From Radicibacter daui (GTDB taxonomy: Bacteria; Pseudomonadota; Alphaproteobacteria; Radicibacterales; Radicibacteraceae), in contig CP131056.1 in assembly GCA_030657355.1 (NCBI GenBank), forward strand, positions 2,996,501 to 3,060,500: a stretch of 64,000 nucleotides of DNA, written 5' to 3'. The notes below the pieces were generated by a model that worked only from the letters and a program-made list of their open reading frames with translations, was not told the origin of the DNA and did no database searches. Shown in pieces: positions 21,519-36,328 of this stretch (positions within the stretch are counted from its first letter, which is position 1; the number at the start of each line of letters is the position of its first letter). The position numbers were made by a program, and so were the translations under genes.

Positions 21519-23201
21519 ATGGCCCTGCTCAGCCGTTTTCGCGTCTCCACGAAGATCTACATGCTGGTTGTAGCCTCTTTCGTGGGCATCGCCGCCCTCA
21601 CCTTCTATGCCGGCTGGTCGCAAAACCAGAGCATCCACGCCGACCGCATCCGCGAACTGCGCTCGGTAACCGAGATGCTCTATTCCCGCGCCAAGGCCAT
21701 CGACGCGATGGACCTGACGCAGGAGCAGAAATTTGCCCGCTTTGGCGAAGAAATGACGCCGGCCCGTTATCGTGGCAGCGAGTATTTCTTCGCCCTCAAC
21801 ACCAAGGGGGTGATGGTCGCCCACGGTGCCAACCCCAAGCTGGTTGGCCAGGACATGTGGAACTTCAAGGACAATAACGGCTTCCAGCTGTTCCAGGAGA
21901 TTGCCAAGGCTGCCCTCGCCCATCCCGACGGTGCCACCATCTCCTATCTGTGGCCCAAGCCCGGCAGCGACGTGCCGGTCAACAAGGACAGCTTCCTGCT
22001 CTACTACAAACCGTGGGACCTCATTATCGGCACCGGCGTCTATACCGACGACCTCGCGGCCGATCTACGTGCCCATTATATGAAGCTGGGTGGCGGCGTT
22101 GCCGTGATCGTTCTTCTGCTGCTCGCCCTCAGCATCGCCGTCTCCCGCAACATCACTGTACCGCTGCCCCGCGTGGCCTCCGCCGTCAACAGGTTGTCGC
22201 AGGGCGATCTGGAAGTGGAGATCGGCGAGCGCGAGCGGGGTGACGAGATTGGCATCATGGCGCGCGCCATTGCCGTCTTCCGTGAAAAGCTGCGCGAGAA
22301 CGAAACGCTACGCCGCAAGCAGGCCGCGACCGAAGACGATGCCGCGGCAGCACGCCGGCAGGCACTGCTTGATCTGGCCAACCAGTTTGAAAGCACCGTC
22401 GGCGCCGTGGTCGATGGCCTTTCCTCCGCTTCCGTCCAGCTGCAGAGCAGCGCCCAGGCGATGGAAAACCAGGCCCGCGAGGCCTCCAGCCAGACCAGCG
22501 CGGCCAACCGGGCCGTCGAGCAGGCCTCGACCAATGTGGCGGCCGTGGCCGGCGCGTCGGAGGAAATGTCGAGCACCATCCGCGAGATCGGCCATCAGGT
22601 AACCGAAAGCTCCAACGTCGCCCGCGCGGCCGTTGACGAGGTAGAAACGACGAGCCGCACCGTCGAACAGCTTGCTACCGCCGCGCAGGAAATCGGCAGC
22701 GTCATCGACCTTATCAACAGCATTGCCGAGCAGACCAACCTGCTCGCCCTCAACGCCACCATCGAGGCCGCACGGGCCGGCGAGGCCGGCAAGGGTTTCG
22801 CCGTGGTGGCGCAGGAAGTCAAAAGCCTTGCTACCCAGACCGGCCGGGCCACGGAGCAGATTTCGGCACAGATCAAATCCATGCAGGAAAACACCGCCGG
22901 CACGGTGACGGCGATGAGCTCCGTCAGCACCACCATCGCCCGTGTAAACGAGATCGCAGCCACCATTGCAGCGGCAGTGGAAGAACAGAGCGCCGCGATG
23001 GGCGAGATCTCCAGCAACGCCGCGCAGGCTGCCTCCGGTGCTTCGGAAGTGGCGGACGGCATCTCGCGCGTTCAAAGCGCCTCCAGCGAAGTCGGCACGG
23101 TTGCCGGCTCGGTCAAGACGGCGTCGGACGTGCTGGCCGGTCAGGCGGAAAAACTGCGGGCGGAGGTCAAAGGTTTCCTCTCCCGTATCCGCGCCGGCTG
23201 A
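21519..23201 (+). CDS. methyl-accepting chemotaxis protein with periplasmic Cache domain
   Basis: 560-aa chemoreceptor. TM1 is at about residues 13-32 and a single Cache (sCache_2-like) sensor at about 35-185 ([20 protein letters not shown], then [17 protein letters not shown]). TM2 is at about 190-209, HAMP at 210-262 and the signalling coiled-coil at about 300-555, with hairpin tip [19 protein letters not shown]. The C-terminus lacks an NWETF-type CheR tether. AAGGA precedes the ATG. sCache domains commonly bind small organic acids, but the ligand here is unknown. It is followed by a terminator and converges on four tandem periplasmic binding-like genes; no other chemotaxis gene is nearby. 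Confidence 0.93.
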
Positions 23202-23211
23202 CGAACAGGGT

Positions 23212-23250
23212 GGGGCGGCATAGAGGGCCAGGCCCGGCCGCCCCCTTTTT
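23212..23250 (+). terminator. intrinsic terminator after the chemoreceptor
   Basis: The 8-bp stem GGGGCGGC / GCCGCCCC (23212-23219, 23237-23244), with an inner GGGCC/GGCCC, is followed by CTTTTT. It lies between the convergent stops of the chemoreceptor and the first binding-protein gene. Confidence 0.7.
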
Positions 23251-23255
23251 CGGGA

Positions 23256-24164
23256 TCAGTTGTTAAAGTCCGGCGCGTTTTCAAACACATAGCCGGTCGG
23301 TCCAATCCAGCGAGAAAAGGCTTCCACAACCTCGGCCGGCAAAGGCTGGCTATCCAGCAGGGCATCGACCGCAGCGATCAGCTTTTCGCCCACCTGCCCC
23401 CGCGAACAGGCCGTACGGACATCACGATAGATGGGGTCACCTGCGGCCGGGGCGCTCAGCAGGTCAAGATCGAGATTCTGGCTGGCCGCCAGATAACGCA
23501 CCTCGAACGGATAGCCGAACATGTAGGTCAGCCGGCCCAGCGCCATCATGCGGACCGCGCTTTCGCTGCTATCGACAGTGTAGAGCGTTTCGCCCGGCAC
23601 CCGTGCGGCAATCATGCCATTGATCGCGGTGGAATAGACACGCTGGTCCACAAACCCGCCGGCCAATCTGCGGTCATTGCCAAGCGCCACCAGATCCAGC
23701 CGCTGGTCCGCGCTCATATAGGGTGCAAAACGCGCGGCATCCTGCCGGCGGTACAGCACACGGCCGGTCTCCAGCCGCCATCGGTGGCGGGAGAAGACAA
23801 GCACCTTCTGCCGCTCGGCCGTATAGAGAAGCGACACGGCGCAGACGCCGTCCCTCTTCGCGGCATCGATCATCACCCGTTGCAGGCTGGCATCGCGCTC
23901 CTGCTGATTGAAGCCTTGCAGGGACTGCATGAAGTAGCGCAGCAGGGTATCGCCGGTTCCCTGGCCGGCATCCGGCCCGGTGCGGATATGGGATGGCGGC
24001 AGGTCAAGCAGGTACCAGTCGACCTGCCGCAGGCCGGCCTGCGGTTGTTGCTGAGCATCGGCCCGCACCGCCAGGGCGCCAAACAGAACCGGCAGCACCA
24101 GCAGCGCCAGGAAGGGGCGGGACCCGCACAGCCGCTTCAACAATCCGGTCGCCACAGGCAGCAT
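23256..24164 (-). CDS. periplasmic solute-binding-like protein, tandem paralogue 1
   Basis: 302-aa exported protein with a signal peptide (hydrophobic 16-35, cleavage near ADA at 37) and then a family-3-like periplasmic binding fold. Shared with the three upstream neighbours are WY (50-51), GPDxGxG, Cys108 in DGVC, TAER, RWRLET, the run ESAVRMMALGR followed by YMFGYPFEVRY, Cys253 in TACSRG, and a C-terminal RW. From memory it resembles the uncharacterised TIGR02285-type proteins; no function is known for them. This copy is the most diverged around the first motif (DLPPSHIRTG). Start ATG with GAGGTGG upstream. No transport permease or ATPase is adjacent. Confidence 0.8.
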   Translation of the reverse strand: MLPVATGLLKRLCGSRPFLALLVLPVLFGALAVRADAQQQPQAGLRQVDWYLLDLPPSHIRTGPDAGQGTGDTLLRYFMQSLQGFNQQERDASLQRVMIDAAKRDGVCAVSLLYTAERQKVLVFSRHRWRLETGRVLYRRQDAARFAPYMSADQRLDLVALGNDRRLAGGFVDQRVYSTAINGMIAARVPGETLYTVDSSESAVRMMALGRLTYMFGYPFEVRYLAASQNLDLDLLSAPAAGDPIYRDVRTACSRGQVGEKLIAAVDALLDSQPLPAEVVEAFSRWIGPTGYVFENAPDFNN

Positions 24165-24237
24165 GCTGACCCCACCTCAAGCGGTTTTTCAACATCCGCC
24201 AGTATGCAGCGGGTGACAAAAAACAGCCAGATGGACG

Positions 24238-25158
24238 TCAGTTGGTTACCGCCGGCGCCACCGTAAACAGGCGCGGCTCCGTTTCCACCTCCACCGCTCC
24301 GCGCCAGCGGCGGCTGGCCTCGCCGATCTCGTCGGTGGTGGGCTGGCGATCCAGCAGGGCATCGATGGCGGAGATCACTCTCGTACTGACCGGCCCCTTG
24401 GAACAGGCAATGCCGCCATCGACATAAAGCGGATCGCCCACCGCCGCGACCGATGCCAGCTTCAGTGCTTCGCGCTGGGTGTCGTTGAAGTAACGCAGCT
24501 CATAGCCATAGCCGAAGGTGTAATCCGCCCGGCCCAGCTCCAGCATGCGAAAGGCGCTTTCGGACGAGTTGACCTGCAGCAAGCGGTCCTGCCGACCGGA
24601 CTGCTCGCGCACATAGCGGTCGATGGCGCCGGTATAGCTGCGCTTGGCGACAAAAACTCCGGTCAACTCCGCGTCATTGAGCATGGCGGCCAGATCGATG
24701 CGGCCATCCGCCGTCATGAAGCGGGCATAAAGGTCCTGACGGTCCGGGCGCAGCATCACGCGGCTGGTCTCCAGCCGCCAGAAATGCTGGGCATAGATCA
24801 GCGCCGCTTCCCGTTCCGGCGTGCGCAGCATGGTGATGGAACACACGCCGTCCTTGACCGCCATGTCAGCCATCAATCGCGAGGGAGAGGCCACGACCTT
24901 TCTGTTCTGGAATTCGTCCAGCCCGGCCATGAATTGCCTGAGCCGGGCATCCGCCGTTCCCTTGCCGGTGTCGGGCCCGCTCAGGATGTAGATCGGCGGA
25001 AAGTCGAACACGTACCAGTCTACCGCCGGCCGCTCCTCCGCGCGGCCTGCTGCGGAAAGCAGCACACAACACGCGCCAAGAAGGACCGCCGTTGCGGCCC
25101 GCGAAAGGCGGCAGCGCACATCAGACCCGATCAAAAACAAGGGTTTGGACCGTGTCAA
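24238..25158 (-). CDS. periplasmic solute-binding-like protein, tandem paralogue 2
   Basis: 306-aa exported paralogue. The hydrophobic signal segment (residues 22-38) contains two adjacent Cys but no convincing lipobox. Family landmarks are WYVFDFPP (48-55), GPDTGKGTAD, Cys106, TPER, FWRLET, SSESAFRMLELGR, YTFGYGYELRY and Cys252 in IACSKG. The start is uncertain: a TTG at 25158 has GAGGGG only 3 bases upstream, and a GTG at 25119 would give a tidier signal peptide. It is 73 bp from paralogue 1 and 122 bp from paralogue 3. Confidence 0.78.
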   Translation of the reverse strand: MTRSKPLFLIGSDVRCRLSRAATAVLLGACCVLLSAAGRAEERPAVDWYVFDFPPIYILSGPDTGKGTADARLRQFMAGLDEFQNRKVVASPSRLMADMAVKDGVCSITMLRTPEREAALIYAQHFWRLETSRVMLRPDRQDLYARFMTADGRIDLAAMLNDAELTGVFVAKRSYTGAIDRYVREQSGRQDRLLQVNSSESAFRMLELGRADYTFGYGYELRYFNDTQREALKLASVAAVGDPLYVDGGIACSKGPVSTRVISAIDALLDRQPTTDEIGEASRRWRGAVEVETEPRLFTVAPAVTN

Positions 25159-25280
25159 AGTCCCCTCAGGGGCAAGAGCCGGAGATGAATGGCAATTCTC
25201 TCAAATTGCGGCGAATTCCGCCAGATGACCTTTTGGTTACCGTCATTGCCGCCCGATGGCCCGCCGGACAGCACCTGCCG

Positions 25281-26153
25281 TCAGGACCGCTCGCCCACCA
25301 TGGCAAGCGGTCCGGTCTCCAGTTCCAGCTCGTCTTCATGCGTCCAGCGGTGGCTGGCCCGCTGCACATCTGCCGGTAGCGGCTCCTCCAGGAGGGCATC
25401 CAGCGCTTGCAGCACCTGCTCGCCCAGCGCCCCGCGCGAGCAGGCAAAGAACCCGTGCTGCCAGGCGGCATCCCCCAGTGCTGGCGCGCTTGCCACCGCG
25501 ACACCCTTTTTCTCCAGCGCGTAGCGCAGTTCGAAGGAATAGCCGAAGGCATAATCGAGCCGGCCAAGCTCCATCATCTTGAGCGCACTTTCCTGCGAGG
25601 AAAGCGCAGTCACCACCGCGGACCGGCTGACGGCAGCCAACGCTGTATCGATGGCCGGAGTGTAGCTGCGGCCAGCGACATAACCGCCGGAAAGGCCGGC
25701 ATCACTCAGCAGCGACACGGTATCCATGCGGCCATCCGGCCGGATGTGACGCCTCAGCGACGCGCGCTCCGCATCCATGAACACCACCCGGGCCAGCGCA
25801 ACGCGCCAGGCATGATGGCTGAAGATCAGCTGCTTCATCCGCTCAGGCGTCGCCAGCACGGTGGGCGCGCAGATATCGTGATAATGCGCACTGTCCTGCT
25901 CCAGCCGCAAAAAGGTGGCCGGCAGGAGGCGATGGTCAAACTGCGGCATACGGCCGATCAGATAATGAAGCACCACATCGGCGCTGCCGGTGCCGACATC
26001 AGGTCCGTCGAGGATGGAGAGCGGAGCAAAGTCCGGCATATACCAGCGCACGACAGGCCGATCCCCAGCCCGCGCCGGCTGAATGCCGGCAAGGCCGGCC
26101 AGCACGATCCACACAGCGGGAACAAAGCCAAAAATTATAGTAAAAACCCGCAC
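25281..26153 (-). CDS. periplasmic solute-binding-like protein, tandem paralogue 3
   Basis: 290-aa exported paralogue starting at GTG with GGAG 5 bases upstream. The signal peptide is residues 1-29 (cleavage after ARA). Landmarks are WYMPDFAP, GPDVGTGSAD, Cys95 (HDIC), TPER, AWRVALARVV, SSQESALKMMELGR, YAFGYSFELRY and Cys238 in FFACSRG. It is the most diverged of the four around the middle but keeps every shared landmark. A 188-bp partly AT-rich gap separates it from paralogue 4, so it may have its own promoter. Confidence 0.78.
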   Translation of the reverse strand: MRVFTIIFGFVPAVWIVLAGLAGIQPARAGDRPVVRWYMPDFAPLSILDGPDVGTGSADVVLHYLIGRMPQFDHRLLPATFLRLEQDSAHYHDICAPTVLATPERMKQLIFSHHAWRVALARVVFMDAERASLRRHIRPDGRMDTVSLLSDAGLSGGYVAGRSYTPAIDTALAAVSRSAVVTALSSQESALKMMELGRLDYAFGYSFELRYALEKKGVAVASAPALGDAAWQHGFFACSRGALGEQVLQALDALLEEPLPADVQRASHRWTHEDELELETGPLAMVGERS

Positions 26154-26341
26154 AAATACTCCAGGAACCTGTTTAATCGCGAAAGCAAATTACTATCTTA
26201 GGCATCAACAGCTGCTTCAATTTTAAAAAAAGCAATGCTCCGGTGCGTGAACAGCATGGCAGCATCGCCGAAATATCGACTGAACCGTCCGGGCCGGCAG
26301 AAGAATGACAGGTTAGTCAGAAATAAGAGCGCGTTACTCTG

Positions 26342-27268
26342 CTACTGCTGCCCCGGCCCTCGCGAGAGCACAAGCGACAGCTCTTCGGGCCGCGTCCAGC
26401 GATAGCTTGCCTGCAGCGTCGAGGGCGGTGGCGGGGCGGCATCCAGCACGTCGTCCAGTGCCGCCAGCAGCGCTTCGCCAACCGCCTCCTTCGAGCAGGC
26501 GATATGCGCCTCCACCACTTCGGGATCGCCGGCCGCGCCGGCGCTTGCCAGCGGCATCCCATTGCCGCGGCGATGCAGCAGGTAGCGCAGCTCGAACGGA
26601 TAGCCGAAGGTGTAGTCGACACGGCCAAGTGCGAGCATCTCCACCGCCCCTTCCGAGCCGGTCACCGCCCAGCCGCCCCGGCGCTGCTTGAGCAAAGCAA
26701 TGGCAGCATCGATGGCCGGGGTATAGGAGCGACGGTCGATATAACCGCCCTGCAACGTCTCGTCCCGGGCCAGCCCTGCCACATCGATCTGTCCATCCGC
26801 TGCGCGGTAGAGGTTGATCGAGGGGGCAAGCCCTTCCGGATAAATCACCCGGGTGGGCTGCACGCGCCAGAAATGGCGGCTGAAGGCCATGAATTTGGCG
26901 CGTTCCGCATTGGGAATGACACTGGTCGTGCAGGCCCCCTGCTCACGGGCGATATCCGTCATCATGCGCGAGATGCTGGCCGTCACGATGCGGTGGCGGA
27001 ACTGCGGCAGCACGCTGATGAAATAGCTGAGCCAGACATCGCCATTGCCGGTACCGGTATCCGGCCCGGAGAGGATGAAGACCGGCGGAAAATCGAAGAT
27101 GTACCAGCTGATCTGCGGCGCGGAGGGCCGCCGTTGCTGCGCCCCGGCCGGAATTGCCAGCAGCGCCGCTGCGAGACCCGCAAGACAGAAGCCGAGGACA
27201 GATCGCCGCAAGCGCTTCCCCGCGCCGCCGGCCTTGCTCCTGTGCTTCCGCCGCAGCGACAACCGCAT
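26342..27268 (-). CDS. periplasmic solute-binding-like protein, tandem paralogue 4
   Basis: 308-aa exported paralogue with a basic N-terminus (MRLSLRRKHRSK) and hydrophobic segment 23-40, cleavage after AGA. Landmarks are WYIFDFPP, GPDTGTGNGD, Cys113 (QGAC), NAER, FWRVQPTRVI, GSEGAVEMLALGR, YTFGYPFELRY and Cys258 in HIACSK. The ATG at 27268 is used because GGGAGG lies just upstream; an in-frame ATG 82 codons earlier would remove the signal peptide from the terminus. It is the first gene of the four-gene array and divergent from an Lrp-type regulator 284 bp away. Confidence 0.8.
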   Translation of the reverse strand: MRLSLRRKHRSKAGGAGKRLRRSVLGFCLAGLAAALLAIPAGAQQRRPSAPQISWYIFDFPPVFILSGPDTGTGNGDVWLSYFISVLPQFRHRIVTASISRMMTDIAREQGACTTSVIPNAERAKFMAFSRHFWRVQPTRVIYPEGLAPSINLYRAADGQIDVAGLARDETLQGGYIDRRSYTPAIDAAIALLKQRRGGWAVTGSEGAVEMLALGRVDYTFGYPFELRYLLHRRGNGMPLASAGAAGDPEVVEAHIACSKEAVGEALLAALDDVLDAAPPPPSTLQASYRWTRPEELSLVLSRGPGQQ

Positions 27269-27552: not shown

Positions 27553-28011
27553 GTGACCCAGAAACTGCAGCTAGACCCGATCAGCCTTGCCCTTCTGGAG
27601 GCGCTGGAAAACGACGCCCGGCTGACCTATGCGGAGCTTGGCCGCCTTGTCGGCCTGTCGGCCCCGGCCGCCGCCGAGCGGGTACGCCGGCTCGAGGATC
27701 TCGGCATCGTGACCGGATACAGGGCGGTGGTGGACCGCGGGCGCATCGGCTACCCGCTGACGGCCTTCGTGCGGCTGCGTACGCCGAGCGAGCTCTACCC
27801 CAAGGTGCGCAAGGCGCTGGAGGCACGGGACGAGGTGCTGGAGTGCCACCACATCACCGGCGAGGACAGCATGCTGATCAAGCTCGCCTGCCGGTCGATC
27901 CAGCATCTGGACGAAGTGCTGAACGTCATCAACAATTTCGGCTCGACGGCGAGTTCGGTGGTGCTTTCCACCTTCATCGAGCGCAACGGCGCCCCGCCCC
28001 CCGTCCTTTGA
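27553..28011 (+). CDS. Lrp/AsnC family transcriptional regulator
   Basis: 152-aa regulator with an N-terminal HTH (DPISLALLEALENDARLTYA, then ELGRLVGLSAPAAAERVRRL) and a C-terminal RAM ligand-binding domain (ECHHITGEDSMLIKLACRS). Start is GTG at 27553; AGGAG lies 14-17 bases upstream, rather far, so the exact start is unsure. It stands between the divergent binding-protein array and the co-directional nucleoside genes, and could regulate either; such regulators usually sense amino acids. Confidence 0.88.
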   Translation: MTQKLQLDPISLALLEALENDARLTYAELGRLVGLSAPAAAERVRRLEDLGIVTGYRAVVDRGRIGYPLTAFVRLRTPSELYPKVRKALEARDEVLECHHITGEDSMLIKLACRSIQHLDEVLNVINNFGSTASSVVLSTFIERNGAPPPVL

Positions 28012-28287: not shown

Positions 28288-29268
28288 ATGAAGAAGCTGC
28301 TTGCTGTTCTCTCCGCCACCACCGCTCTGGCGGCTGGCGCGGCGAGCGCCGCTGACGTCAGCCCGGCGATTATTTTCGACATGGGTGGCAAGTTCGATAA
28401 GTCCTTCAACGAATCCGCCTACAACGGCGCCGAGAAGTTTGCCAAGGACAGCGGCGTCAAGTACCGCGAGTTCGAGATCACCAACGAAGCCCAGCGTGAA
28501 CAGGCCCTGCGCAACATGGCCCGCCGCGGCTCCAATGTGATTGCGGCTGCCGGCTTCGCCCAGGAAGAGGCGATGCGCACCGTCGCCAAGGAATTCCCGG
28601 ATGTGAAGTTCTGCATCGTCGACTCCGCTATCGAAGATGTGCCGAACATCCGCTCCTACACCTTCAAGGAAGAGGAAGGTTCCTTCCTCGTCGGCATGAT
28701 CGCCGCGCTCAAGTCGCAGACCGGCAAGGTCGGCTTCGTTGGCGGCATGGACATCCCGCTCATCCGTAACTTCGGTCACGGCTACGAGCAGGGCGTGAAG
28801 TACGTCGCCTCCGGCGATGAAGTCTTCATGAACATGACCGGCACCACCCCCGCTGCCTGGACCGACCCGACCAAGGGCGCCGAACTTGCCAAGTCGCAGT
28901 TCGACCGCGGTGCGGACGTTGTCTACGCCGCAGCCGGCGCCACCGGCCTTGGCGTGCTGCAGGCTGCCGCCGATGCCGGCAAGTTCTCCATCGGCGTCGA
29001 CAGCAACCAGAACTGGATCCATCCGGGTTCCGTGCTGACCTCCATGGTCAAGCGCGTCGATGTGGCGGTCTATGACTGCTACAATTCGGCCAAGGACGGC
29101 TCCTGGAAGGGCGGCCATGAAGTGCTGTCGCTCGCCAACAGCGGCGTCGACTTTGCGATGGACGACAACAACAAGCCGCTCATCTCCGACGAGATGCTGG
29201 CCAAGGTGAATGACGCCAAGGCCAAGATCATTGCCGGTACGCTCAAGGTCGAGCCGTACACGCCCTGA
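28288..29268 (+). CDS. BMP family (nucleoside) ABC transporter substrate-binding protein
   Basis: 326-aa periplasmic binding protein with signal peptide (residues 1-21, cleavage after ASA). It has the BMP/PnrA-type pattern: IFDMGGKFDKSFNESAYNGA at the N-terminus, GFAQEEAM, EEEGSFLVGMIAA and GVDSNQNWIHPGSVLTSM. BMP proteins bind purine and related nucleosides, and the following genes for nucleoside transport and phosphorolysis support that. There is no lipobox Cys, unlike Gram-positive relatives. It is followed by a strong hairpin that probably protects this abundant mRNA segment. Confidence 0.92.
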   Translation: MKKLLAVLSATTALAAGAASAADVSPAIIFDMGGKFDKSFNESAYNGAEKFAKDSGVKYREFEITNEAQREQALRNMARRGSNVIAAAGFAQEEAMRTVAKEFPDVKFCIVDSAIEDVPNIRSYTFKEEEGSFLVGMIAALKSQTGKVGFVGGMDIPLIRNFGHGYEQGVKYVASGDEVFMNMTGTTPAAWTDPTKGAELAKSQFDRGADVVYAAAGATGLGVLQAAADAGKFSIGVDSNQNWIHPGSVLTSMVKRVDVAVYDCYNSAKDGSWKGGHEVLSLANSGVDFAMDDNNKPLISDEMLAKVNDAKAKIIAGTLKVEPYTP

Positions 29269-29282
29269 TCTCCCTACCGGTT

Positions 29283-29313
29283 CCGGCCCCTTTCACCCCG
29301 TGGAAGGGGCCGG
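29283..29313 (+). other. intercistronic hairpin after the binding-protein gene
   Basis: A perfect 10-bp stem CCGGCCCCTT / AAGGGGCCGG has an 11-base loop, 15 bp past the binding-protein stop. It is not followed by a T run. This placement is typical of structures that stabilise the binding-protein message or partly block readthrough to the ATPase gene. Confidence 0.6.
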
Positions 29314-29405
29314 TCCCTTGCTGCCCCGATCAGTGCTGGCGCAACGCGGCCGCTGGCGACAAGCCGCAGGCGCGGTGCCGCTGACCGAAGGAAATTCTCA
29401 AGCGC

Positions 29406-30983
29406 ATGACTTCGGCCCCGAACAAGCCCGCCTCGAAAGCTGCTGCCCTGCCCGCCCTTGAGCTGCGCAAGGTCAACAAGTGGTTCGGCACCAACCATGC
29501 CAACCGCGACATCGACCTTGCCGTCCAGCCGGGCACCATTCACGGCATCATCGGCGAAAACGGCGCCGGCAAATCGACGATCATGTCGATCGTTTACGGC
29601 TTCTATTCCGCCGACAGCGGCGAGGTGCTGGTGAACGGCACGCCCGTGACCATCACCAGCCCGAAGGACGCGCTGGCCGCCGGCATCGGCATGGTGCACC
29701 AGCACTTCAAGCTGGTGGACAATTTCACCGTGCTGGAAAACGTCATCCTCGGCGTTGAAGGCGGCATGAAGCTCGCCGCCGGCATGGCCAGGGCCCGCGC
29801 CGAGCTGGAGCGGCTGGAGCGCGAATATGGCCTTGAGGTCAGCCCCGACAGCGTCGTGGAAGATCTGCCGGTCGGCATCCAGCAGCGCGTGGAAATCCTG
29901 AAGGCGCTCTATCGCGGCGCCGACACCCTTATTCTCGACGAACCCACCGGCGTGCTGACGCCGCAGGAAGTGGATGAACTCTTCCGCATCCTGCGCCAGC
30001 TGCGTGAGCAGGGCAAAACCATCATCATCATCACCCACAAGCTCGGCGAAGTGATGGCGCTGACCGACCGTGTGTCGGTGATGCGCCGCGGCGAGATGGT
30101 GGCCCACCGCCAGACCGCCGAGACCAGCAAGGAAGAGCTGGCCGAGCTGATGGTCGGTCGCAAGGTGCTGCTGCGCGTGGCCAAGGGCCCGGCCAACCCG
30201 GGCGCCACGGTGCTGAAGATTGACGGCCTTAACGTCATCGACGGCCAGGGCGTACGCCGGGTCAAGGACGTGTCGCTCGATGTGCGCGCCGGCGAGATCG
30301 TCGGCATCGCCGGCGTCTCCGGCAACGGCCAGTCAGAGCTCTTGCAGGCACTTTCCGGCATCATGAAGCCTGCCTCCGGCCAGATCCTCTACAAGGGCGA
30401 GGATATCGCCGGCGACCCGGCGAAGCTCAATGCCCGCGCGCTGCGCAAGGCCGGTGTCGGCCATGTGCCGGAAGACCGCCAGCGCGAGGGGCTGGTGATG
30501 AGCTTCCTAGCCGCAGAAAGCGCCATCCTCGGTTATCACGACCTGCCGGCCTATAACCGCGGCATCCTGATGGACCGCGATGCCATCATCGCCGAGACGC
30601 AGCGCTATATCGAAAAATACGATGTCCGGCCGACGAGCCCGACCTACAAGAGCTCCAACTTCTCCGGCGGCAACCAGCAGAAGCTGGTGCTGGCCCGCGA
30701 GATCGAGAACGACCCAGACCTGCTGCTGATCGGCCAGCCGACGCGCGGTGTCGATATCGGCGCCATCGAGTTCATCCACTCCCGCCTCATCGAGATGCGC
30801 GATGCCGGCAAGGCCATCCTTGTCGTCTCGACCGAACTCGACGAGGTGATGTCGCTCTCCGACCGTATCGTGGTGATGTTTGACGGCCATGTGGTGGGCG
30901 AGCTGCCCGCCAGTGAGGCCGACGAGCGCATTCTCGGCCTGATGATGGCCGGTATCGACCCGAAGAAGAACCAGGCAGCCTGA
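29406..30983 (+). CDS. nucleoside ABC transporter ATP-binding protein (two NBDs)
   Basis: 525-aa fused double ATPase of the sugar/nucleoside (RbsA-like) type. The first domain has Walker A GENGAGKST, signature region LPVGIQQRVEILKAL and Walker B LILDEPTGVLTPQE. The second has a degenerate Walker A (GVSGNGQSELLQAL), intact signature SGGNQQKLVLAREI and LLIGQPTRGVDIGA in place of a canonical Walker B. One catalytically weak site is usual in this family. It powers the two permeases encoded next. Confidence 0.93.
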   Translation: MTSAPNKPASKAAALPALELRKVNKWFGTNHANRDIDLAVQPGTIHGIIGENGAGKSTIMSIVYGFYSADSGEVLVNGTPVTITSPKDALAAGIGMVHQHFKLVDNFTVLENVILGVEGGMKLAAGMARARAELERLEREYGLEVSPDSVVEDLPVGIQQRVEILKALYRGADTLILDEPTGVLTPQEVDELFRILRQLREQGKTIIIITHKLGEVMALTDRVSVMRRGEMVAHRQTAETSKEELAELMVGRKVLLRVAKGPANPGATVLKIDGLNVIDGQGVRRVKDVSLDVRAGEIVGIAGVSGNGQSELLQALSGIMKPASGQILYKGEDIAGDPAKLNARALRKAGVGHVPEDRQREGLVMSFLAAESAILGYHDLPAYNRGILMDRDAIIAETQRYIEKYDVRPTSPTYKSSNFSGGNQQKLVLAREIENDPDLLLIGQPTRGVDIGAIEFIHSRLIEMRDAGKAILVVSTELDEVMSLSDRIVVMFDGHVVGELPASEADERILGLMMAGIDPKKNQAA

Positions 30984-30989
30984 AGCCCG

Positions 30990-31015
30990 CCGCCCCTCCC
31001 CTTAAAGAGGGGCGG
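30990..31015 (+). other. intercistronic hairpin between ATPase and permease genes
   Basis: A 9-bp stem CCGCCCCTC / GAGGGGCGG with an 8-base loop lies 7 bp after the ATPase stop, followed by AAATCTTATT. It may be a weak attenuator or a message stabiliser. Confidence 0.5.
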
Positions 31016-31060
31016 AAATCTTATTCGACCCTATCCAGAGAACAAGAAAAGCAAGCACCG

Positions 31061-32200
31061 ATGGCGTCCCCCGCAAGCAGTAAACCCGGTGAGATACCCG
31101 GCTGGATCTACAATGTGATCCTGCCGATCCTGAACCTGCTGGCCGCGCTGGTGGTCTCGGGCATCCTCATCCTGCTTATCGGCGAAAACCCGATCAATGC
31201 CTTGTGGGTACTGATCCAGGGCGCCTTCGGTTATGCCGACAACATCGGCTACACGCTTTATTACGCAACCAGCCTCATCTTCGTCGGCCTCGGCTTTGCC
31301 GTGGCGGCGCATGGCGGCAAGTTCAATATCGGCGGCGAGGGCCAGGGTTATATCGGCGGTCTCGGCATCGGCCTTGCCTGCCTTTACATGGGCAGCACGC
31401 CGTGGCCGATCGTGATGCTGGTCGCCATCGTCGGCGGCGCGGTCTGCGGCGGCGTGTGGGGTCTGGTGCCGGGGTATCTGGCCGCCAAACGCGGCGCGCA
31501 CACCGTCATCACCACCATCATGTTCAATTTCATCGCCTCGGCGCTGATGACCTACCTGCTGGTGGACGTGCTGATCCGCCCCGGCCAGCAGAACCCGGAA
31601 TCCGAGACCTTCGCGGTCACGAGCCAGCTGCCGCAGGTGCGCGATATCCTGCTGAATTTCGGCATCAATATTCCGCCAAACCCGCTCAACGTTTCCTTCG
31701 TCATCGCGCTTTTGTGCTGCGTTGCCGTCTACTACTACATCTGGCGCACCCGCTGGGGTTATGAGCTGCGTGCCGTGGGGCAGAACGAGAAGGCGGCCGT
31801 CTATGCCGGCATCTCCCCCACCATGATCACCATCATCTCGATGACGATCTCCGGCGCCCTCTGCGGCCTGATGGGCCTCAATGTGCTGATGGGCGACCAG
31901 CATCGCATCGTGCTCAACTTCACCGCCGGGCTCGGTTTCGTCGGCATCGCGGTGGCACTGATGGGCCGCAACCACCCGTTCGGCATCCTGCTCGCCTCGC
32001 TGCTGTTCGGTGCGCTCTACCAGGGCGGCTCGCAGCTTTCCTTCGATATTCCGGTGCTGAACCGCGACCTCGTCGTGGTCATCCAGGGCCTCGTCATCCT
32101 CTTTACCGGCGCGCTGGAAAACCAGTTCAAACCCTATCTGGAATGGACGTATCGCCGCCTCACCCGGCAAAGCGTCCCCCAAAGCACCAAGGAGGCCTGA
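31061..32200 (+). CDS. nucleoside ABC transporter permease 1
   Basis: 379-aa inner-membrane permease of the BPD_transp_2 (RbsC/YufP-like) family with about nine hydrophobic segments. Recognisable stretches are GFAVAAHGGKFNIGGEGQGY near residue 90 and ELRAVGQNEKAAVYAGI in the cytoplasmic loop that contacts the ATPase. It is the longer of two dissimilar permeases, as in YufP/YufQ and NupB/NupC pairs. The stop is 3 bp from the next permease start. Confidence 0.92.
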   Translation: MASPASSKPGEIPGWIYNVILPILNLLAALVVSGILILLIGENPINALWVLIQGAFGYADNIGYTLYYATSLIFVGLGFAVAAHGGKFNIGGEGQGYIGGLGIGLACLYMGSTPWPIVMLVAIVGGAVCGGVWGLVPGYLAAKRGAHTVITTIMFNFIASALMTYLLVDVLIRPGQQNPESETFAVTSQLPQVRDILLNFGINIPPNPLNVSFVIALLCCVAVYYYIWRTRWGYELRAVGQNEKAAVYAGISPTMITIISMTISGALCGLMGLNVLMGDQHRIVLNFTAGLGFVGIAVALMGRNHPFGILLASLLFGALYQGGSQLSFDIPVLNRDLVVVIQGLVILFTGALENQFKPYLEWTYRRLTRQSVPQSTKEA

Positions 32201-32203
32201 GCG

Positions 32204-33175
32204 ATGGATAATCTCAACGACATCGTCACCATCCTCGCCTCCACCGTGCGCCTCGGCACGCCGCTTATCCTGTGCGCCATCGCCGGCCTGTTCTCAGAGC
32301 GCTCCGGCGTCGTGGATATGGGGCTTGAGGGCAAGATGCTGGGCGGCGCCTTCCTGGCCGCTTCCGTCGCTTACCTGACGGGCAGCCCCTGGCTCGGCCT
32401 GCTGGCCGCCATCGGCTTTTCCATCGCCATTTCGATGCTGCACGGCTATGCCTGCGTCACGCTCAATGGCGACCAGGTGGTGACCGGTGTTGCCATCAAC
32501 ATCATGATCGCCGGCTTCGGTCCGACCTTCGCTTTCTCCTGGTTCAATCTCGGCGGGCGCACCCCCAACCTGTCGGGCGGCCAGCGCTTCAAGGACATTA
32601 CCCTGCCGCTGGCGGATACCCTGAAGGATGTGCCGGTCATCGGCACGATCTATGACGGGCTGATCAGCGGGCACAATATCCTCGTCTATGTCGCCTTTGC
32701 CGTCGTGCCGCTCTCCTGGTGGGTGCTTTACAAGACGCGCTTTGGCCTGCGCCTGCGCGCGGTCGGTGAAAACCCCTCCGCCGTCGACGTGGCCGGCATT
32801 TCCGTGCGCGGCATGCGCTACCAGGCGCTGGTCATCAACGGCGTGCTGTGCGGCATTGCCGGTGCCTACCTCTCCACCGCCCATGGCGCCGGCTTCATCC
32901 GCGACATGAGCGCCGGCAAGGGTTACCTTGCCCTTGCCGCCCTCATCTTCGGCAAGTGGAAGCCGGGCCCGACGCTTGCCGCCTGCCTGCTGTTTGCTTT
33001 TGCCGATGCCGTGCAGGTGCGCATCCAGGGTGTGCCGCTGCCCTTCATCGGCATGGTGCCGAGCTCCTTCGTGCAGATGATCCCCTATGTGCTGACGGTG
33101 CTGGTTCTGGCCGGTTTCGTCGGCAAGTCGGTGGGGCCGAAGGCCGCGGGCATCCCTTACGTCAAGGAGCGCTGA
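32204..33175 (+). CDS. nucleoside ABC transporter permease 2
   Basis: 323-aa partner permease of the BPD_transp_2 family. It opens with the typical ASTVRLGTPLILCAIAGLFS and SGVVDMGLEGKMLGGAF, and carries the ATPase-contact loop LRAVGENPSAVDVAGISV. With permease 1 and the double ATPase it completes a BMP-dependent nucleoside importer. The stop lies 3 bp before the phosphorylase start, so uptake and phosphorolysis are translationally linked. Confidence 0.92.
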   Translation: MDNLNDIVTILASTVRLGTPLILCAIAGLFSERSGVVDMGLEGKMLGGAFLAASVAYLTGSPWLGLLAAIGFSIAISMLHGYACVTLNGDQVVTGVAINIMIAGFGPTFAFSWFNLGGRTPNLSGGQRFKDITLPLADTLKDVPVIGTIYDGLISGHNILVYVAFAVVPLSWWVLYKTRFGLRLRAVGENPSAVDVAGISVRGMRYQALVINGVLCGIAGAYLSTAHGAGFIRDMSAGKGYLALAALIFGKWKPGPTLAACLLFAFADAVQVRIQGVPLPFIGMVPSSFVQMIPYVLTVLVLAGFVGKSVGPKAAGIPYVKER

Positions 33176-33178
33176 GCC

Positions 33179-34033
33179 ATGGCCGGCACCACGGACGATT
33201 TTGCCGGACGCCCGCACGAGGCCGCCAACGCCATCGTTGCCGCGGCCCCCGGCATCACCCCGCGTGTGGCGCTGGTGCTGGGCTCAGGCCTTGGCGGCAT
33301 TGCCGCCGGCATCAAGCCGACCGCGGTGCTGGATTATGGCGACATTCCCGGGTTTCCGGTGCCGAAGGTCGCCGGCCATGCCGGCAAGCTGATCCTCGGC
33401 GAACTGGCCGGCCAGAAGGTCGCCTGCCTGCAGGGGCGTGTGCATTTTTACGAAGGGCACAGCCCCGCCCCGCTCAAGACCATGATCCGCGCCATGAAGC
33501 TCATCGGCTGCGAGATGCTCTACCTCACCTGCGCCGCCGGCAGCCTGCGCCCGGAAATCGGACCCGGCGCGCTGATGCCGATCGGCGATCATCTGAACCT
33601 CATGGGCATGAACCCGCTAGTCGGCCCCAATGAGGATGAATTCGGCCCGCGTTTCCCGCCGATGGCGAATGCCTGGGACAAGGCGCTGCTGGAGCACCAA
33701 CTGGCCGCCGGCAAGGATGTCGGCCTTACCATGACGCCCGGCACCTATGCCGCCTTCATGGGTCCTACTTTCGAGACCCCGGCGGAAGTGCGCATGGCGA
33801 TGACGCTCGGCGCCCATGCCGTGGGCATGTCGACGGTGCCGGAATGCATCGTCGCGCGCCATTGCGGCCTCAAGGTTACCGGCACCGCCGCCATCACCAA
33901 TCTGGGCGAGGGCCTTTCCGACGAAGCACTGAGCCACGAGCAGACGCTGCGCGGCGCGGTGGATGCCGCCGCCGGTCTTGAAAAACTGATCCCGCGTTTC
34001 CTTGCCACCTTGCCGGCCTCCCTGCCGCGCTGA
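33179..34033 (+). CDS. punA: purine-nucleoside phosphorylase
   Basis: 284-aa trimeric-type PNP that splits purine (deoxy)nucleosides with phosphate. Motifs are VLGSGLGG (phosphate-binding), QGRVHFYEGHSP (catalytic His), LTCAAGSL, GPTFETPAEVRM and MSTVPECIVARH, followed by TNLGEGLS. At the base-recognition position the sequence reads TAAITNLGEG, with Asn as in purine-specific members. The symbol punA is used for the trimeric family; the xanthosine-type XapA is the main alternative. It directly follows the permease genes. Confidence 0.9.
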   Translation: MAGTTDDFAGRPHEAANAIVAAAPGITPRVALVLGSGLGGIAAGIKPTAVLDYGDIPGFPVPKVAGHAGKLILGELAGQKVACLQGRVHFYEGHSPAPLKTMIRAMKLIGCEMLYLTCAAGSLRPEIGPGALMPIGDHLNLMGMNPLVGPNEDEFGPRFPPMANAWDKALLEHQLAAGKDVGLTMTPGTYAAFMGPTFETPAEVRMAMTLGAHAVGMSTVPECIVARHCGLKVTGTAAITNLGEGLSDEALSHEQTLRGAVDAAAGLEKLIPRFLATLPASLPR

Positions 34034-34074
34034 CGCGCTGGCTCGCGGCCTTTCTTCCGACTGACGGTCCTATC

Positions 34075-34890
34075 ATGCAGCTCGACCCCGCCCTCGCAGA
34101 AATCCTGAAGAACTCGGCCGCCCTCGCCCGGCCGACGGCAGCCAGCGCCCAGCGCGCGCTGCAACTCATGGATCTCACGAGCCTCAATGACAGCGACACC
34201 GCCGAAAGTGTTGCCGCCTTCTCCCGCAAAGCCACAACACCGGCTGGCAATGTGGCAGCGGTGTGCGTTTATTCCCGCTTCGTGCCGGCGGCCCGGTCGG
34301 TGCTGGACGGCACCGGCGTGCGCATTGCCACCGTCGTCAATTTCCCCGGCGGTTTTTCCACGCCCGATGATGTGGCTGCCGAAACCCGTGCCGCGCTCGA
34401 TGCCGGGGCTGACGAGATCGACGTGGTGGTGCCGGTCAAGGCCGCGCTCGCGGGCGACATGGCCGCCGTTACCGATGTGCTGACGGCCTGCAAGGAAGCC
34501 TGCGGCACCGCGCCGATGAAGGTCATCCTCGAATCCGGCCTCTTCACCGACGCCGCGCTTTTGAAGAAACTGAGCCAGACGGCCTGCGCCGCCGGGGCCG
34601 ATTTCCTCAAGACCTCTACCGGCAAGGTACCCCAGGGCGCCTCGCTGGAGGCGGCTGCCGTCATGCTGTCGGTGATCGCCGACGGCAATCTCGGCGTCGG
34701 CTTCAAGGCATCGGGCGGCGTTGCCAGCAACGAGCAGGCGGCACAGTATCTTGCGCTTGCCGACACGCTGCTGGGTCCGGCCTGGGCCGGCCCTGCCACC
34801 TTCCGTTTCGGTGCCAGCCGCCTGCTGAATGCCCTGCTGGCCGATCTTGGCCAGGGTGGTGGTGGTAGCGGACCTTCTTCGGGTTACTGA
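34075..34890 (+). CDS. deoC: deoxyribose-phosphate aldolase DeoC
   Basis: 271-aa class I aldolase cleaving 2-deoxyribose-5-phosphate to glyceraldehyde-3-phosphate and acetaldehyde. The Schiff-base Lys is in ADFLKTSTGK and the second active-site Lys in GVGFKASGGV. DEIDVVVPVKAAL carries the conserved Asp. The C-terminal low-complexity tail GGGGSGPSSGY is unlike the family core. It continues the deoxynucleoside breakdown begun by the phosphorylases on either side. Confidence 0.94.
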   Translation: MQLDPALAEILKNSAALARPTAASAQRALQLMDLTSLNDSDTAESVAAFSRKATTPAGNVAAVCVYSRFVPAARSVLDGTGVRIATVVNFPGGFSTPDDVAAETRAALDAGADEIDVVVPVKAALAGDMAAVTDVLTACKEACGTAPMKVILESGLFTDAALLKKLSQTACAAGADFLKTSTGKVPQGASLEAAAVMLSVIADGNLGVGFKASGGVASNEQAAQYLALADTLLGPAWAGPATFRFGASRLLNALLADLGQGGGGSGPSSGY

Positions 34891-34993
34891 CCCCGACAAG
34901 CCGGGCGCGGGCGCGACTTCCAGATAAAAGGGCGCGGGGCACCCCTTCCGGCAACGGCAAGAGCCCCGCCCCGCAAGATCGGGAGGAACGGCC

Positions 34994-36328
34994 ATGCTGC
35001 CGCAGGAAATCATCCGCAAGAAGCGCGACGGTTACGCGCTCACCGCCGGGGAAATATCCGGCTTTATCGAGGGTCTCGGGTCCGGCGCCGTCAGCGAGAC
35101 GCAGGTGGCCGCCTTTTGCATGGCCGTGTTCTTCCGCGATATGACCTGGGACGAGCGCGTGGCCCTGACCCGCGCGATGATGAATTCCGGCACCGTGCTG
35201 GACTGGTCCGACCTCCCGGGCCCGGCCATCGACAAGCATTCCACCGGCGGCGTCGGCGACAAGGTAAGCCTCATCCTCGGCCCCATGATCGCGGCCTGCG
35301 GCGGTTTCGTGCCGATGATCTCCGGCCGCGGCCTCGGCCATACCGGCGGCACGCTCGACAAGTTCGACAGTATTCCGGGGTACCAGACGCAGCCGGGGCT
35401 GGACCTTTTCCGCAAGGTGGTGCGGGAGGCAGGCTGCGCCATCATCGGCCAGACGGCAGACCTCGCCCCCGCGGACAAGCGCATCTATGCGGTGCGCGAC
35501 ATCTCGGCGACGGTTGAATCCATCTCCCTCATCACCGCCTCCATCCTCTCCAAGAAACTCGCCGCCGGCCTCGGCGCGCTGATCATGGATGTGAAGTTCG
35601 GCTCCGGCGCCTTCATGAGCACGCTGGAGGATGCCGTCTCGCTCGCCGGCAGCCTCGGACGCGTGGCCAACGGTGCCGGCCTGCCCACCACGGCCCTTAT
35701 CACCGACATGAACGAAGTGCTGGGCCGCACCGCCGGCAACGCGCTGGAGATGCTGGAATCGGTGCAGATGCTGGCAACCGGCAAGGGCGACCAGCGCCTG
35801 CGCGACATTACGGTGGAGCTGAGCGCCGAGGCGCTGGTGCTGGGCGGCGTGCACAAGGATAACGAGGCGGCGCGGGCGGATTGCCTTGCCTCCCTCACCG
35901 ATGGGCGGGCGGCCGAACGCTTCGCCCGGATGGTCTGCGGCCTCGGCGGCCCGGCCGATTTCATGGAAAAGCCGGAGAAGTACCTTGCCGCCGCCCCGGT
36001 AGTGCGGGAAATACAGAGTGTTGAGAGCGGTTTCGTAACCCGGATCGATACCCGCGCCGTCGGCGTGGCGGTCATCGAGCTCGGGGGCGGGCGGCGCAAC
36101 ACCGGCGACGCCATCGATCACTCGGTCGGATTTGCCGGGGTTGCCGGCATCGGCGAAGCAGTTGGCCCCGGCGGCCGGCCGCTGGCGGTGGTGCATGCGG
36201 CCAGCGAAGCGGCAGCCGATGCGGCGGCAGCCAGTATCCGTGCTGCCTTTGCGGTTGGCGCGGAGCCGGCGGCACGGGGGCCGCTGGTGGCACGCCGGCT
36301 CAGCGCCGAAGAGGCGCTGGCCCTGTGA
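34994..36328 (+). CDS. deoA: thymidine phosphorylase DeoA
   Basis: 444-aa pyrimidine-nucleoside phosphorylase giving thymine and deoxyribose-1-phosphate. It shows the family signature [20 protein letters not shown] and the phosphate/nucleoside site [13 protein letters not shown]. The active-site Arg/Ser/Lys cluster is in [20 protein letters not shown]. The length equals that of E. coli DeoA. GGGAGG precedes the ATG. It completes the purine plus pyrimidine salvage pair with the PNP gene. Confidence 0.95.

Follow-up and report, generated by a model that had tools for sequence, protein, structure and literature searches.

Organization of the Locus

The window analyzed here is a 64,000-nucleotide stretch of the Radicibacter daui genome, in which the gene for a methyl-accepting chemotaxis protein converges on four consecutive genes for exported, binding-like proteins, hereafter the array (Table 1). 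ORF coordinates, strands and domains agree on this point with the original prediction, which had described a Cache-domain chemoreceptor facing four paralogues of 290-308 a.a. According to the ORF listing, the stop codons of the chemoreceptor and the array lie 54 bp apart, and the array genes are separated by gaps of 73, 122, and 188 bp. A terminator scan identified no site within the 54-bp convergent gap, and a promoter scan found nothing.

The ORF listing of the window contains no transporter gene adjoining the array. By inspection, the gene next upstream of the array encodes an Lrp/AsnC-type regulator, beyond which lie a distinct BMP-type nucleoside transporter and salvage genes, while metabolic genes are located on the opposite side of the locus; the description of the neighbors as members of other systems, with no transporter partner alongside, is therefore accurate. 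The Lrp/AsnC-type protein is a possible regulator of the array, or else of other genes. The nucleoside transporter region (window 28288-36328; by inspection) encodes a BMP-type ABC transporter with its own binding protein, followed by salvage-like genes that resemble purine phosphorylase, deoxyribose-phosphate aldolase or deaminase-type, and thymidine phosphorylase genes, and is apparently an uptake-and-salvage cluster.

Table 1. Coding features of the chemoreceptor-array locus, in window coordinates.
Feature	Position	Strand	Remarks
Methyl-accepting chemotaxis protein	21519..23201	+	560 aa; sCache_2 + HAMP + MCPsignal
Array protein 1, exported, binding-like	23256..24164	-	302 aa; TIGR02285 score below cut-off
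Array protein 2, exported, binding-like	24238..25158	-	306 aa; TIGR02285 family
Array protein 3, exported, binding-like	25281..26153	-	290 aa; TIGR02285 family
Array protein 4, exported, binding-like, first gene of the array	26342..27268	-	308 aa; TIGR02285; modelled
Lrp/AsnC-type regulator, divergent from the array	27553..28011	+	annotated by inspection

Family, Descent, and Fold of the Array Proteins

TIGR02285 is an NCBIfam subfamily without an assigned function, and the literature search retrieved no source that names it. Array proteins 1-4 score 106, 147.1, 143.6, and 161.4 bits against its profile, which places proteins 2, 3, and 4 above the curated cut-off (143.3 bits) and protein 1 below it, although protein 1 falls in the same clade as the other three. 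The likeness to TIGR02285 that was proposed from the sequence is thus confirmed by profile matches, with three of the four proteins over the cut-off. None of the four matched a Pfam family, including SBP_bac_3 (PF00497), for which no match was obtained at E ≤ 1. In a full-length alignment the other three proteins are 37-43% identical to array protein 1, and a pair of cysteines, the arginine of an "ER" motif, and glycine and aromatic positions are invariant across all four. The Cys pair, the ER motif, and a GR-DY-GY motif are common to the array proteins and the TIGR02285 family. All four proteins have Sec-like N-termini (signal peptides judged by eye), so that they appear, as predicted, to be exported paralogues with shared landmarks.

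The R. daui genome (5.06 Mb) has no TIGR02285 genes beyond the four of the array. A phylogeny of 106 members of the family unites their products in a single clade with 100/100 support, and the terminal branches measure 0.7-1.0 changes per column; the array is therefore an old, lineage-specific tandem expansion, not four acquisitions. No such array turned up in 58 relatives that were searched, and the synteny test is limited by a genome sample in which the source genome is the sole representative of its genus, family, and order. Array protein A1 returned no relatives in a scan of named genomes and no match in a sequence search of the PDB.

Array protein 4, the only one of the four whose structure was modelled (AlphaFold2, 12-sequence alignment), has a mean pLDDT of 85.9, with most core blocks above 90. 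In a Foldseek comparison with the PDB, the top match of this model is the VFT2 domain of the sensor kinase BvgS (E-value 3.9e-10), closely followed by amino-acid binding proteins, GluR ligand cores, and Borrelia Hk1 sensors; in all, more than 1,200 PDB chains match at E ≤ 0.001. Based on the model, a two-lobed type II periplasmic-binding fold is firmly predicted for array protein 4. The binding-like character proposed from the sequence is supported by the predicted fold; the likeness to SBP_bac_3 proteins is one of structure only. BvgS VFT2 and transporter binding proteins score alike against the model, so that a role in sensing cannot be distinguished from one in transport by fold similarity.

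Genomic Neighborhoods of the TIGR02285 Family

TIGR02285 has a sporadic distribution: it is present in 21 of the 385 genomes examined from the class and in 38 of the 398 from the phylum. One bacterial family within the phylum carries it in 107 of 148 genomes, with up to 11, mostly dispersed, copies per genome; this large expansion is unexplained. The neighborhoods of 97 further TIGR02285 loci were read, 96 of which are distinct (L120 is the same as L136). Tandem pairs are present at seven of these loci, and three or four genes in a row at none, so that among the 98 loci four-in-tandem TIGR02285 genes are found in the window only, single genes or pairs being usual elsewhere.

Next to TIGR02285 genes, histidine kinases are overrepresented, occupying 13 of 191 adjacent slots vs. 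5 of 434 slots at a distance of 4-6 genes (Fisher 2.7e-4). When kinases were counted separately with Pfam, on a subset that overlaps with these loci, the values were 10/113 adjacent vs. 2/100 (p 0.028). The linkage of the family to sensors is nevertheless partial, since about four-fifths of the loci have no sensor next door; a linked kinase or cyclase sensor is seen for part of the family and is absent from the array locus.

The CHASE5 Connection

Several of the sensors beside TIGR02285 genes carry CHASE5, a periplasmic domain of ~108 residues. Ten CHASE5-like proteins are encoded among the 1,311 genes of the TIGR02285 loci, nine of them one gene and one of them two genes away from the TIGR02285 gene. 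The domain is found in 9 of 191 adjacent slots vs. 0 of 611 slots at 3-6 genes (p 2e-6), a comparison made with a profile seeded from TIGR02285 neighbors and for which the Pfam model PF17149 gives the same direction. L096, whose TIGR02285 gene overlaps a CHASE5-GGDEF gene, belongs to the group that joins the array clade in the tree (89/86, not starred). Two of the ten CHASE5-like proteins follow tandem TIGR02285 pairs, at loci that are co-directional cousins of the window arrangement: L169 (7165-10633) contains a tandem TIGR02285 pair and one GGDEF protein with 4-nt overlaps, and L170 (641-4731) contains a tandem pair and one CHASE5 hybrid kinase. In both, the pair and its sensor apparently form one operon.

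The association was also examined in the reverse direction, using 20 loci (L172-L191) picked by CHASE5 score alone. An exported family-3-like protein directly adjoins at least 13 of these 20, a count in which the calls at L181, L185, and L188 rest on our own profile only. Two of the adjoining proteins are TIGR02285 proper, and most of the others are weak or clear SBP_bac_3 matches. At L179 and the related L178, the protein beside CHASE5 is ABC_sub_bind-like. With an exported binding-like gene adjoining no fewer than 13 of 20 CHASE5 loci, CHASE5 may well be a domain on which binding proteins encoded by separate genes dock. Across L172-L191, L169, L170, L096, L111, and L112, most CHASE5 kinases and cyclases have an exported binding-type protein encoded beside them. 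TIGR02285 and CHASE5 also co-occur (17 genomes share both; Fisher 2.4e-6), a statistic that is confounded by phylogeny and was set aside.

The R. daui genome encodes one CHASE5-like hybrid histidine kinase with borderline scores (28.6 / 24.8 bits). Its gene (G000:C1:17599-19869, equivalent to L192:3599-5869) is located ~3 Mb from the array and has no binding protein beside it; the kinase is thus an unlinked candidate for the receptor that the array serves.

Proposed Function of the Array

The explanation that we favor, at somewhat better than even confidence, is that the products of the TIGR02285 array capture ligands on behalf of transmembrane sensors, as subunits of these and not of transporters. 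In the periplasm, a small molecule would be enclosed by one of the paralogues, which, once loaded, would bind to the periplasmic domain of a membrane sensor and activate it. The four paralogues could thereby provide several alternative inputs to one sensor. The linkage across the family to histidine kinases and CHASE5 sensors argues for sensing rather than import, in line with the original prediction. A more tentative extension is that CHASE5 serves generally as the docking site of secreted, separately encoded binding proteins, with TIGR02285 among its partner families, and that the array is a multi-ligand module loading one receptor with alternative signals, this receptor being either the chemoreceptor next to it or the CHASE5-like kinase located elsewhere. 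The linkage between TIGR02285 and the CHASE5-type kinases and cyclases offers a concrete, testable function for both, as a secreted binding protein and its docking domain. On that reading, the array, with its four genes, would surpass every other input set in the survey.

The Adjacent Chemoreceptor

The chemoreceptor next to the array matches sCache_2 with 101.5 bits (Pfam). The best PDB matches of its Cache domain are 4k08 and 5g4y, presumably the domains of Adeh_3718 and PscD. The former is described as pyruvate-binding (PMC12415202), and PscD as acetate-bound (PMC9600550). In 4EXO, short carboxylates are held by Y96, F98, H109, F148, W150, and K161 (PMC12415202); the corresponding pocket of the window receptor consists of Y89, F91, H102, Y143, W145, and K156, so that all six direct-binding positions are kept. 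Because these residues are retained, the chemoreceptor is predicted to be a direct sensor of short carboxylates. The R. daui genome contains 43 chemoreceptor matches. A chemoreceptor signaling-domain match at G000:C1:2432722-2433072 has an in-frame TGA and an open frame of 134 a.a., and is probably a pseudogene.

The original prediction had this receptor as the partner of the array, such that the four paralogues would feed it and it would take several ligands through them. Stimulation of chemoreceptors by binding proteins is an established mechanism (PMC9602780), the array and the receptor gene are directly adjacent, and tandem binding proteins with one sensor recur at L169 and L170. However, conserved synteny had been set beforehand as the test of this pairing, and the arrangement is not conserved: a chemoreceptor is the next gene at only one of the 97 other TIGR02285 loci (L109), where its sensor domain is NIT and not Cache, and chemoreceptors are not enriched in adjacent slots (1/191 vs. 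1/434 at 4-6 genes; p 0.52). With 43 chemoreceptors in the genome, the chance that a given locus adjoins one is ~1.8%. The convergent genes cannot share one transcript, and the complete carboxylate pocket, as read against PMC12415202, argues for a ligand of the receptor's own. Moreover, binding proteins and their chemoreceptors are gene neighbors in only 3 of 11 known couples, so that adjacency is neither needed nor strong evidence, and it has misled before, in the cases of AgtS and AruS (PMC11113362). We therefore do not favor the pairing: the chemoreceptor probably has its own ligand, and its service as the receptor of the array is doubtful.

Uptake and Other Functions

It is unlikely, though the array proteins share in the model the fold of family-3 binding proteins from amino-acid transporters, that the paralogues are orphan uptake proteins delivering ligands to an ABC transporter encoded elsewhere. 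Binding proteins that serve unlinked transporters exist, and the array could likewise serve a distant one. A permease/ATPase pair consistently linked to the family elsewhere would have spoken for uptake and against the original prediction, but none adjoins the array, and no such consistent linkage was found at the other TIGR02285 loci. By the Pfam count, which is used for transporters because our own pattern overlooked one ABC ATPase or more (L040), ABC_tran is present in 3 of 113 immediate neighbors across the family; at L040, the genes after the ATPase encode a binding protein and permeases of its own. Furthermore, the array proteins lack an SBP_bac_3 match, while the genome has 24 other SBP_bac_3 stretches. 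It is less probable still that the array proteins are enzymes or carriers reusing the binding fold for another job, for although an ancestral cyclohexadienyl dehydratase and fragments of the lytic transglycosylase MltF are among the Foldseek matches, the array proteins have no fused catalytic domain (Pfam), and their family is linked to sensors and CHASE5.

Comparison with Known Systems

The window receptor shares its conserved pocket residues with the sCache_2 chemoreceptors PscD, Adeh_3718, CtpM, and McpV. Those receptors bind acetate, pyruvate, propionate, or malate themselves, whereas the window receptor faces a binding-protein array. The VFT domains of BvgS, the top fold match, exemplify a sensory use of the type II periplasmic-binding fold; in BvgS they are fused to the kinase, while the array proteins are separate and secreted. 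A closer parallel in gene organization is NspS-MbaA, which combines an exported binding-type protein with a GGDEF/EAL membrane sensor (PMC8079147), and in which nspS is immediately upstream of mbaA, as are the TIGR02285 genes at L169 and L096 relative to their sensors. NspS binds polyamines and has an established receptor, whereas the array lies beside a chemoreceptor. The mode of action proposed for the array is the same as that of the binding-protein-activated kinases and chemoreceptors (PMC9602780, PMC11113362). Binding proteins and their kinases are gene neighbors in 10 of 11 characterized cases (PMC11113362), and kinase partners as gene neighbors are thus a feature of the characterized couples and of part of the TIGR02285 family alike.
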